A DNA stretch of 64,000 nt from Acidimicrobiia bacterium. Lineage in GTDB: Bacteria > Actinomycetota > Acidimicrobiia > IMCC26256 > JAMXLJ01. Positions 3,233 through 64,000 of the stretch are shown here, piece after piece. The DNA lies in NCBI GenBank assembly GCA_035651955.1, contig DASRES010000069.1:124001-188000 (forward strand). The letters are read 5' to 3'. Below the pieces are notes generated by a model. That model ran no database searches, was not told the DNA's origin, and saw only the letters and a program-made list of their open reading frames with translations. The translations under genes and the position numbers were made by a program. Position 1 is the stretch's first letter. The number at the start of each line of letters is the position of its first letter.

Positions 3233-4263
3233 GCACGCTCCATTCCGTTCGCGAGCGCGTACACGCGCTCGACCAGCATGTCGCGCGGGACCACCTCGTC
3301 CACCAGTCCCCATTCCAGCGCGCGTGACGCGTCGACCGTCTCGCCCGTGAGCAACAGCTCCAGGACGCGGGCGCTGCCGATGCGCCTTCGGAGCGACACA
3401 GTCCCCCCCGCGCCCGGCACGAGGCCCAGACCGAGCTCCGGGAGGCCGATCCGCGTGTCGTCTGCTGCGACGACGCGTGACGCGAACGCCGGCAGCTCGA
3501 TCCCGGCGCCGGTGCATGCGCCGTGCAGCGCGACGACGAGCCGGTCGCGCAACGCGTCGACGACACGCGCGACGCAGCGCGTCAGCCGGACGACGTGCGC
3601 AGTTGCGGGATCCGGCGCGGTCCCGAACTCGCCGAGGTCCCCGCCGGAGCAGAACGACGGCCCGTCGGCGCGCCACACGACCGCGCCGTCACCCGCTGCG
3701 AGCGTCGTGAACGCTTCGTGGAGCGCGTCGCGCATCGCGAGGTCGAACGCGTTGTGACGCGACGGGCGGGCCAGCACGACGCCGGTGACCCCGTCGCGTT
3801 CCTCGAGCCGGACGCGCGGGGTGTCGGCGTCGCCGGCGGGTGTGATGCAACGAGTGGCGAGCCACGCCCGGTGCTCGGGGCCCGACTGCAACATCGAGTA
3901 CGCGGCCGATTCCGCGACGAGCCCGGGCCACGTCTCCGTGGGCGCCGTGCGCAGCAGCACCGCCGCCGACACCGCCGCCACCGGGGCGCGCGCGAAGCCC
4001 GCCGACCATGCGAGGACATCCCGGTCGTCGTCGGTCACCAGGTCGACGGCGTCGACGGGCACCTCCCGCGCGTCGGTGAGCGCGATCGTCAGCGCGGGAA
4101 GCTCGCGGAGGGCATGCCGCGTCCGTTCGTCGGCGTCGCGCAGGCCGTCGCCCTCGATGCACACCAGCGAGGGCTGTGCACCGAGCTCGTCGCGCAGCGA
4201 CCGGACGGTCCAGCGGCCGGCGTCGCCGCCGAGCAGGCGGGCGTCGAGCCGGAGCGTCGCCAT
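3229..4263 (-). CDS. tandem crotonase: degenerate half plus enoyl-CoA hydratase domain
   Basis: A 344-residue protein from ATG at 4263. Residues from about 120 to the end form an enoyl-CoA hydratase/isomerase domain: RPSRHNAFDLAM, SFCSGGDLGEF for the first oxyanion strand, GACTGAGIELPAFASRVVA, and LPELGLGLVPGAGGT. The first 115 or so residues have no clear motif. Their pattern (a short strand-rich start, an RAPVAAVSAAVLLRTAP stretch, and a final Tyr- and His-containing helix) suggests a worn crotonase-like half, but this is only an impression. The usual second catalytic Glu region reads LPELGLGLVPG. It lies between the desulforedoxin-like mini genes (13-base gap) and the ligase (4-base overlap), probably one operon for a CoA thioester pathway. 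Confidence 0.78.
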   Translation of the reverse strand: MATLRLDARLLGGDAGRWTVRSLRDELGAQPSLVCIEGDGLRDADERTRHALRELPALTIALTDAREVPVDAVDLVTDDDRDVLAWSAGFARAPVAAVSAAVLLRTAPTETWPGLVAESAAYSMLQSGPEHRAWLATRCITPAGDADTPRVRLEERDGVTGVVLARPSRHNAFDLAMRDALHEAFTTLAAGDGAVVWRADGPSFCSGGDLGEFGTAPDPATAHVVRLTRCVARVVDALRDRLVVALHGACTGAGIELPAFASRVVAADDTRIGLPELGLGLVPGAGGTVSLRRRIGSARVLELLLTGETVDASRALEWGLVDEVVPRDMLVERVYALANGMERA

Positions 4264-61370: not shown

Positions 61371-62171
61371 ATGACGCGCAGCGACGACACGGCGATCCCC
61401 GACTACCCGGGGAAGCTGCGGCTCGACGACAGGCGGTTCGTCGTGATCGGCGCGGGACAGGGGATCGGCCGCCAGGCGACGCACGCGCTCGCGTCGGTCG
61501 GCGCGCGCACGTTCTGCGTCGATCTCGACCACGACCTCGCGAACGACATCGCGCAGGAGGTCGACGGCGTCGCGTGGTCGGGTGACGCGACGAAGCGCGA
61601 CGACGCGGAGTCGATGTTCGCGAGCGCGCAGGCCGCGTTCGGCGACATCGACGGCGTCGTCGACATCATCGGCATGGCGCAGTACGCGGACCTCGTCGAC
61701 ATCACCGACGAGCTGTGGAACTGGCACTTCGACATCGTCCTGCGGCACGCGTACCTCGCGATGCAGCTCGGTGGGCGCGCGATGACGCGGAGCGGGGGCG
61801 GAGCGATGGTGTTCGTCGCGTCGGTGTCGGGGATCACGTCCGCCCCGCGTCACGCCGCGTACGGCGCGGCGAAGGCGGGGTTGATTGCGCTCGTCCGCTC
61901 GGGTGCCGTCGAGCTCGGGCCCTCCAACATCCGGGTCAACGCGGTCGCGCCCGGCGTCGTGTGGACGCCGCGCGTCTCGGCCTACCTGGGTGACGAGGGG
62001 CGCGCCCGCAACACCGAGAACGCGCCGCTGCGTCGCGTCGCCCTGCCCGCCGACATCGCGTCGGCGATCCTGTTCCTCGCGTCGGACCTCGCGTCGTACG
62101 TCACCGGGCAGACGCTCGTCGTCGACGGCGGCGTCGGCGCCAAGTTCCCGTACCCGATGGGAGAGCTGTGA
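61371..62171 (+). CDS. short-chain dehydrogenase/reductase
   Basis: A 266-residue SDR with a 20-residue N-terminal extension: RFVVIGAGQGIGRQATHALASVGARTFCVDLDHDL, VVDIIGMAQY (NNAG replaced), FVASVSGITSAPRHAAYGAAKAGLIALVRSGAVELGPSNIRVNAVAPGVVWTPRV, and FLASDLASYVTGQTLVVDGG. Tyr and Lys are present. It overlaps the VOC gene by GTGA and follows the cyclase gene by 16 bases. The replaced NNAG may mean altered stability or substrate. Confidence 0.85.
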   Translation: MTRSDDTAIPDYPGKLRLDDRRFVVIGAGQGIGRQATHALASVGARTFCVDLDHDLANDIAQEVDGVAWSGDATKRDDAESMFASAQAAFGDIDGVVDIIGMAQYADLVDITDELWNWHFDIVLRHAYLAMQLGGRAMTRSGGGAMVFVASVSGITSAPRHAAYGAAKAGLIALVRSGAVELGPSNIRVNAVAPGVVWTPRVSAYLGDEGRARNTENAPLRRVALPADIASAILFLASDLASYVTGQTLVVDGGVGAKFPYPMGEL

Positions 62172-62545
62172 TCGATCACGTGGGGATCCAGTGCGCGGAC
62201 GTCGCCGGGAGCCGCTCGTTCTACGAAGCCCTGCTCGCACGGCTCGGGATGAAGGCGGCGTTCGAGCCGGCGCCGGATGTCGTCGGGTTCTTCGGCCCGC
62301 AGCCCGGGTCGTTCTGGCTCAGCCCGGCGGAGCGCGACGAGACGCGTGAGATCCATGTCGCGTTCCGGGCCCGGACGCGTGCCGAGGTGCGCGCGTTCCA
62401 CGACGCCGCGGTCGCGCTCGGCGCCGAGATCCTGCACGCGCCGCGGGTGTTCCCCGAGTACCACCCGACCTACTACGGCGCGTTCGTGCGCGACCCCGAC
62501 GGTCACAATGTCGAAGCCGTCTGCCACGAAGACACCGACGGGTGA
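62168..62545 (+). CDS. VOC (glyoxalase-fold) protein
   Basis: A 125-residue vicinal-oxygen-chelate protein: MIDHVGIQCADVAGSRSFYEALLARLGMKAAFEPAPDVVGFFG with the first His ligand, then EIHVAFRARTRAEVRAFHDAAVALGAEILHAPRVFPEYHPTYYGAFVRDPDGHNVEAVCHED with the terminal Glu. It has the two beta-alpha-beta-beta-beta modules of one subunit. Relatives are isomerases, dioxygenases or lyases. GTG 62168 overlaps the SDR stop. A hairpin follows before the DsbA-like gene. Confidence 0.85.
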   Translation: MIDHVGIQCADVAGSRSFYEALLARLGMKAAFEPAPDVVGFFGPQPGSFWLSPAERDETREIHVAFRARTRAEVRAFHDAAVALGAEILHAPRVFPEYHPTYYGAFVRDPDGHNVEAVCHEDTDG

Positions 62546-62615: not shown

Positions 62616-62621
62616 TACGGT
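62616..62621 (+). promoter_or_regulatory. leaderless -10 box of DsbA-like selenoprotein gene
   Basis: TACGGT lies 8 bases before GTG 62630, the same spacing as at 4571, 22566 and 54907. This supports the upstream start that includes the in-frame TGA. Confidence 0.6.
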
Positions 62622-62629
62622 GCGTCGTC

Positions 62630-63256
62630 GTGACACCCGTCCCCCTCCTCGTCTGGTCGGACTTCCTCTGACCGTGGTGCTACGTCGCGGCGGTCCGCCT
62701 CGAAGAGCTGCAGCAACGTCTCGGTGACGCGATCACGGTCGAGTGGCGGGCCTTCCTGCTGCGCCCGGAGCGCGAGCAGCGCCCGCTCGACCGGTTCCGC
62801 GCGTACACCGAGTCGTGGCGGCGGCCGGCGTCGGTCGAGCCGCGCTGCGAGTTCACGGTCTGGGCGACCGACGCCCCGCCGCCGTCGCACAGCGTCCCGC
62901 CCGCCGTCGCGGCGAAGGTCGCAGGGCTGTTCGGCGACGAGCCGGCCCGCCGCTACCACGAGGCGCTGCTCCACGCCTACTTCGCCGAGAACCGCACGGT
63001 GTCGGACCGTGCCGTGCTCGTCGACGTGGCTGCGTCCGTCGGGCTCGACCCCGACGCCTTCGACGCCGCCCTCACCCAGCACGGCGAGGAGCAGCAGCGC
63101 CGGGTCTTCGCCGAGTACCACGAGGCGATCGAGCTCGGGATCTACGCCGTCCCGGCCGTGGTCGTCGCCGGGCGCTTCCTCGTGAGCGGAGCGGTCGAGG
63201 TCGCCGACTACGAGCGGATGCTCGAGCGGGCCACCGAGCCGGGCGCCAGCATGTAA
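62630..63256 (+). CDS. DsbA/FrnE-like selenoprotein with UPWC active site
   Basis: A 208-residue thioredoxin-fold oxidoreductase of the DsbA/FrnE group, read through TGA at 62669-62671 as selenocysteine 14. The active site is WSDFL-U-PWC-Y, where relatives have CPWC. The frame stays open from GTG 62630 to the stop at 63254-63256, with no other TGA. The helical insert (FRAYTESWRRPASVEP) and the cis-Pro loop (YAVPAVVVAGRFLVSGA, near residue 175) are in place. Conventional calling would keep only 63 or so percent from GTG 62999. A leaderless TACGGT box sits 8 bases before the start. A hairpin follows the UGA. It would act as a dithiol/selenol oxidoreductase in the cytoplasm, since no signal peptide is seen. 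Confidence 0.87.
62669..62705 (+). promoter_or_regulatory. UGA plus candidate bacterial SECIS hairpin of DsbA-like gene
   Basis: After TGA (62669-62671), the stem 62689-62692/62696-62699 closes the loop GTC (62693-62695), whose G is base 22 after TGA. Beyond a C-U mismatch, three more pairs form (62685-62687 with 62701-62703). This matches the CMD hairpins in position, in a GTY loop and in a mismatch within the stem, though the sequence is unrelated. Confidence 0.68.
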
Positions 63257-63307
63257 ACGAGCTCCTTCGCCCTCAACAACCGGCCCGTCCGCCCGATGAG
63301 CCAGCAT

Positions 63308-64000
63308 GGCGATCGAGGGCGCCGGCGCGCCCGAGGACGGCTCGGGACGGATCGCGGGCAGCGTCACCGCGGTGATCCTCCGCTGCGCGGCGCGGGTCGC
63401 GGGCGACGAGGCCGTCCCCCGCCTCATGGCGCTCGCCGGGGACGACCGTGACCCGGCCGAGCTGCGCGAGCAGTCGACGTGGAGCGACTACGCGACGGTC
63501 GTCGCGCTCTTCCGAGCCGGGATCGAGGTCACGGGCGACGCTCGCTTCGCGCGCGTCGTCGGCGAGGAGATGCTGCGGCAGTGGCAGGGCAGCGAGGTCG
63601 TCGCGCTCCTCCGGGCGCTCGGCTCGCCGGCCGAGGTGCTGCGCAACATCGCCGTCACCGCGTCGAAGATCTCCACCGCGACGCGCCTCGAACCCGTCGA
63701 GCTCGGCGACGACCACGCCGTGGTCGAGGCGTGGGCGGTCGCCGGGCTCGAGCGCGACGTCACGTTCTGCGAGTACACCGCCGGGACGCTCTCGCAGGTC
63801 CCCATCGTGTTCGGCATCGATCCGGCCGAGGTCGTCGAGACGCAGTGCCAACGCCGCGGCGCGCCTCGCTGCGTCTACGAGGTCCGCTGGGACCCGTCGA
63901 CGTCGCCCGAGACGAACCCGCAGCGACGCATCGAGCACCTCGAGGCGCAGCTCGCGGTCCTCACCGAGCGGTTCGAGTCGATGCAGGAGGCGACGCGCGA
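63308..64000 (+). CDS. V4R/heme-NO-binding-like sensor protein, 3' end outside window
   Basis: An open frame runs from ATG 63308 (ATG 63296 in frame just before) to the window end with no stop: 231 residues. The start is MAIEGAGAPEDGSGRIAGSVTAVILRCAARVAGDEAVPRLMALAGDD. Then come WSDYATVVALFRAGIEVTGDARFARVVGEEMLRQWQGSEVVALLRALGSPAEVLRNIAVTASKIS and a Cys-rich end, CEYTAGTLSQVPIVFGIDPAEVVETQCQRRGAPRCVYEVRW. This is typical of V4R-type sensor domains that precede GAF, PAS or GGDEF output domains in actinobacteria. A coiled-coil linker (RRIEHLEAQLAVLTERFESMQ) begins at the edge. The output domain and ligand cannot be seen. Confidence 0.75.

Follow-up and report, generated by a model that had tools for sequence, protein, structure and literature searches.

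The gene located close to the end of the DNA stretch analyzed here (64,000 nucleotides, referred to as the window) very probably encodes a cytosolic thiol-disulfide oxidoreductase of the DsbA superfamily, 208 residues in length and nearest to FrnE, in which the UGA triplet that forms codon 14 specifies selenocysteine (Sec; Table 1). Decoding as Sec is the most likely fate of this UGA, and selenium would thus be placed at the catalytic position of the enzyme. This assessment draws on comparative sequence data and structure prediction, namely the position of the UGA, the presence of the genes for the Sec machinery, the conservation of a hairpin, the exchange of Sec for Cys among relatives, purifying selection, and the predicted fold. 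As DsbA-like selenoproteins with a UxxC motif have been catalogued since 2005, the window gene is a new, well-supported lineage of an already known group of selenoproteins.

Table 1. Features of the selenoprotein gene and its surroundings, in window coordinates.
Feature	Coordinates	Strand	Description	Basis
-10-like box TACGGT	62616-62621	+	8 bases upstream of the start codon	sequence
Predicted DsbA/FrnE-like selenoprotein gene	62630-63256	+	GTG start at 62630, UGA at codon 14, TAA stop at 63254-63256	translation, PF01323, FrnE match by sequence and fold
Predicted UGA selenocysteine codon	62669-62671	+	U of the UPWC motif	TGA in 15 genomes, TGC/TGT in 11 homologues
Putative bacterial SECIS hairpin	62684-62704	+		pairing and covariation over 14 UGA forms; synonymous-codon null
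Parts of the putative SECIS hairpin	62684-62691 / 62697-62704 (arms); 62692-62696 (loop)	+	loop GGUCC	
cis-Pro loop	63149-63154	+	Val174-Pro175	conservation among 11 homologues

The reading frame contains a single in-frame TGA, and its read-through product would begin with VTPVPLLVWSDFLUPWCY. The Pfam model DSBA (PF01323) matches residues 8-196 of this product with 89.7 bits and thereby spans the UGA, while Pro175 is invariant and Val174 nearly invariant in the 11 homologues. The initial annotation had described a TGA in place of the first Cys of the family signature within a protein that is otherwise intact, including its cis-Pro loop, and both statements are borne out by the translation, the domain match, and the TGA column of the 15 genomes. 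An AlphaFold2 model, calculated with Cys substituted for Sec, has a mean pLDDT of 93 and a pTM of 0.89; it places a strand at residues 4-10, followed by residue 14 and then by a helix at residues 15-34, and this predicted order is the standard active-site layout of the DsbA fold. Because the protein carries no N-terminal extension ahead of the first strand, a location in the cytosol appears probable.

Our search across the class covered 395 genomes, 17 of which possess a close relative of the window gene; codon 14 is TGA in 14 of them and TGC in three. The TGA forms are spread over several families, and a fifteenth one occurs in a genome from another class of the same phylum (G563, locus L119). 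A TGA shared at this position by 15 genomes is not a matter of chance. In the alignment of the 15 UGA forms with 11 Cys forms, the UGA column coincides with the first Cys of the CxxC motif, and the VWSDFL stretch preceding it is kept in the orthologues, which speaks against the possibility, raised together with the initial annotation, that orthologous proteins begin downstream of the UGA. The comparison with Cys-containing orthologues that had been suggested there revealed TGC at the corresponding codon in the three relatives mentioned above. Eight homologues from the Myxococcota are all Cys forms; they were retrieved with Cys-codon patterns and are therefore uninformative on the existence of Sec forms in that phylum.

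The genome from which the window stems (an assembly of 4.1 Mb, 96% complete) is equipped with the machinery needed for the insertion of Sec, the absence of which had been considered and can now be rejected. It encodes a tRNA-Sec with the anticodon UCA that scores above the family cut-off (67.9 bits), an in-frame SelB (334 bits), SelA (383 bits) whose gene adjoins selB on the same contig, and SelD (401 bits). A second gene with an internal UGA is present in this genome: on contig C84, from position 3843 (L112 / L126), it codes for the alpha subunit of formate dehydrogenase (FdhA) with the motif ARI-U-HSSTVP, which we take to be the classic Sec position of this enzyme. Downstream of the UGA of this gene lies a strong hairpin (GUCCCC-AGUUU-GGGGAC, with the loop AGUUU) at a spacing similar to that found in the DsbA-like gene. 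Among the genomes of the class that carry the TGA form, all 14 possess a tRNA-Sec above the cut-off. Our search of the G563 assembly returned tRNA-Ser only and no tRNA-Sec, despite the UGA form found there, and this reflects either an assembly gap or a real exception.

A putative SECIS hairpin is common to all 14 TGA forms found in the class; it lies downstream of the UGA and occupies nucleotides 16-36, with the U of this codon as nucleotide 1. Its stem comprises up to eight base pairs, six to eight of which are realized, and its loop of five nucleotides follows the pattern xGUxC with an invariant GU. In the alignment, 86.6% of the cells are paired, as compared with 33-48% when the partner is slid, and neither the covariation score nor the number of cells changed on both sides was matched in 500 shuffles. 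RNAalifold recovered the same helix with six pairs. Two compensatory pairs, G-C to C-G and G-C to A-U, join codon positions of different residues. Against a null model in which the amino acids were fixed and the codons were redrawn synonymously (1000 draws), the UGA forms have 6.93 pairs where 4.87 are expected and fold at -8.9 rather than the expected -4.5 kcal/mol, values that no draw reached (0/1000 in both cases). The geometry of the hairpin was picked on the same 14 sequences on which it was scored, with the 11 Cys forms serving as the control, and these lie exactly at the null (3.27 versus 3.27 pairs). Judged by these comparisons, the hairpin is specific to the UGA forms. The copy in the window, with six of the eight pairs and one C-U mismatch, is not the best example of it, and six of the eight pairs are likewise retained in G563. 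When 42 nucleotides of the window strand were folded on their own, another stem was preferred and no significant structure was found (z -0.28); the comparison of orthologues is therefore needed to recognize the element.

Selection on the encoded protein can be followed on both sides of the UGA. In three pairs of close UGA forms, the 10 codons ahead of the UGA contain no nonsynonymous but two to three synonymous differences, and dN/dS is near 0.1 over the 49 codons past it; as judged from these alignments, change is mainly synonymous on either side. The constraint is weaker for the window gene and its sister in G001 than in the other close pairs: the part past the UGA yields a dN/dS of about 0.39 (0.223/0.565), and the first 49 codons yield 0.67, with few synonymous changes, some of which may be held back by the hairpin.

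These data bear directly on the question whether the UGA is a true stop codon, so that the gene would be a pseudogene, carry a sequencing error, or give rise to a product starting downstream. Under translation table 11, the only remnant in this frame is indeed an ORF of 85 residues from 62999, as would be expected if the UGA terminated translation. The next in-frame start codon past the UGA of the window gene lies, however, 110 codons downstream, and the conserved active-site strand and the active site itself are encoded upstream of or at the UGA; a downstream start is consequently rejected. A sequencing error or a decayed gene is equally at odds with a TGA that recurs at one codon in 15 genomes of several families and with the scarcity of nonsynonymous changes on both of its flanks, and we regard termination at this codon as highly improbable. 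Read-through by itself does not reveal which residue is inserted, and Trp, Cys, or another amino acid might be incorporated through a reassigned code or near-cognate suppression. Nothing specific speaks in favor of such a decoding, and the complete Sec machinery with its tRNA-Sec(UCA), the restriction of the hairpin to UGA forms, and the alignment of the UGA with a catalytic Cys make it hardly credible. The reading as a DsbA/FrnE-like selenoprotein, originally proposed from the window alone, is thus strengthened by new evidence from the machinery, the orthologues, and the UGA-specific hairpin.

The transcript of the gene is probably leaderless. A TANNNT box is positioned 6-9 bases upstream of the homology-supported start in 15 of the 17 orthologues; the exceptions are G276 and G001, and in the latter the selenoprotein gene starts directly after the stop codon of a gene for an SDR protein. 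The initial annotation had correctly noted the -10-like box in front of the GTG codon of the window gene and had taken it as support for translation across the UGA, a conclusion that goes too far: the recurrent box supports leaderless transcription and the choice of the start codon, but not read-through as such.

From these observations we infer a scheme that comprises leaderless initiation, Sec insertion, and catalysis in the cytosol. The mRNA would begin at, or nearly at, the GTG codon; with the UGA in the A site of the ribosome, SelB charged with Sec-tRNA(UCA) would bind the hairpin that starts 12 nucleotides downstream, and Sec would be inserted. Located at the N-terminal end of the active-site helix, Sec14 would serve as the selenolate attacking substrate disulfides, and Cys17 would resolve the mixed selenenyl sulfide. 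If this is true, SelB-dependent recoding operates on ribosomes that are barely past a leaderless start, and the gene set described here provides a case for asking if SECIS-directed recoding works so close to such a start.

In 2005, a Sargasso Sea survey reported nine sequences of DsbA-like selenoproteins, assigned to COG2761 (PMC1088965), and forms of PF01323 with a UxxC motif appear in later catalogues as 'DsbA 1' of the GOS data (PMC2398784) and as 'DsbA-like protein form 1' (PMC13188914). A DsbA-like selenoprotein is also listed for Anaeromyxobacter and others in PMC1794560. The excerpts consulted assign such proteins to marine metagenomes, to Deltaproteobacteria, and to a clostridium, namely Desulfotomaculum reducens (PMC1794560). 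Compared by description, Pfam family, and motif, the published proteins, as portrayed in these excerpts, resemble the window protein in their Pfam family, the location of Sec at the first position of CxxC, a downstream hairpin, and the existence of Cys homologues. The window gene has PF01323 across the Sec site, UGA at the first Cys, the Sec machinery in its genome, and a SECIS-like hairpin whose small apical loop contains a G, the last of these being weaker in the window copy. It differs from the forms described in these excerpts in being actinobacterial and apparently leaderless, and in the exchange of Sec and Cys at orthologous loci. The excerpts consulted on DsbA-like selenoproteins describe neither a leaderless start at such a short distance from the UGA nor Sec/Cys pairs that are this closely related.

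The best solved relative is FrnE of Deinococcus radiodurans (5cnw, 5cp1), found at 1.3e-14 by sequence and with a TMq of 0.79 by fold. Both proteins share the core fold, the cis-Pro, and the N-terminal CPWC motif (UPWC in the window protein), but FrnE carries Cys instead of Sec at the first position and is longer (260 versus 208 residues), and its C-terminal extension with an extra Cys (C239) is missing from the window protein, which contains no Cys beyond residue 73. An affiliation with the thioredoxin-like (seleno)lipoprotein family of Rcas_1661 (NF041057) was considered, as this thioredoxin-fold family has selenoprotein members; it was rejected, since the match is partial, best over the C-terminal part, and far below the cut-off (41.5 versus 190 bits), and since NF041057 is a lipoprotein family whereas the window protein starts straight at the first strand. 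A Sec protein of the DsbA superfamily might also act in a role other than that of a general oxidoreductase, as a thiol-dependent transferase, isomerase, or nitroreductase. The kappa-class GST, HCCA isomerase, and Rv2466c, a mycothiol-dependent type of the same superfamily, are candidates for such a role, given that the DsbA core is common to these enzymes and that the structural matches include 3fz5, 2imd, and a kappa-class GST. The intact U-x-x-C pair and the cis-Pro favor redox exchange, however, and FrnE and DsbM, which match most closely, are described as a disulfide oxidoreductase and a reductase; we therefore consider such a function unlikely and retain the assignment as a thiol-disulfide oxidoreductase.

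The three TGC relatives occupy orthologous, partly syntenic loci. The UGA form of G009 and the UGC form of G033 are 61% identical, constitute a well-supported pair, and have flanking genes in common; G054 (UGA) and G027 (UGC) form a second supported pair, and G054 also has neighbors in common with G020 (UGC). The tree requires at least three changes between the two states on well-supported branches, and within the family concerned the exchange probably proceeded from Sec to Cys. A tRNA-Sec above the cut-off was found in G033 (L011) and G027 (L015), but not in G020; the presence of the machinery alone is therefore no predictor of the codon. G027 and G033, both with a Cys form and no hairpin, represent apparent Sec/Cys switches in bacteria in which Sec can still be made. 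We tend to view these genes, on balance and with considerable reservation, as a selenoprotein lineage that extends across several families within a single actinobacterial class; Sec would be decoded around codon 14 of leaderless mRNAs, and Sec and Cys would have been switched repeatedly at one locus, the Cys forms being devoid of the hairpin. This actinobacterial lineage displays both the exchange of Sec and Cys and the accompanying RNA signal with unusual clarity and offers a natural experiment: close relatives carry the same gene with either UGA or UGC, and the hairpin is present only in combination with UGA. Ordinary annotation would miss the product or shorten it to the 85-residue piece left under the standard code, and this redox enzyme would consequently be under-counted in these bacteria.

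The neighboring genes code for an SDR protein, a glyoxalase-like protein, a cyclase, and an alcohol dehydrogenase. Among the neighborhoods listed, none contains a functional partner conserved beyond close relatives, and the neighbors therefore give no hint of the substrate. In the window, the glyoxalase-like gene (62168-62545) lies between the SDR gene and the selenoprotein gene, a position at which it is missing in the sister genome G001. Further downstream, an ORF at 63306-64000 runs past the window edge; its first 231 residues have no Pfam match, and its homologues are large genes located in the vicinity of the Sec/Cys gene of G009, G020, and G033.
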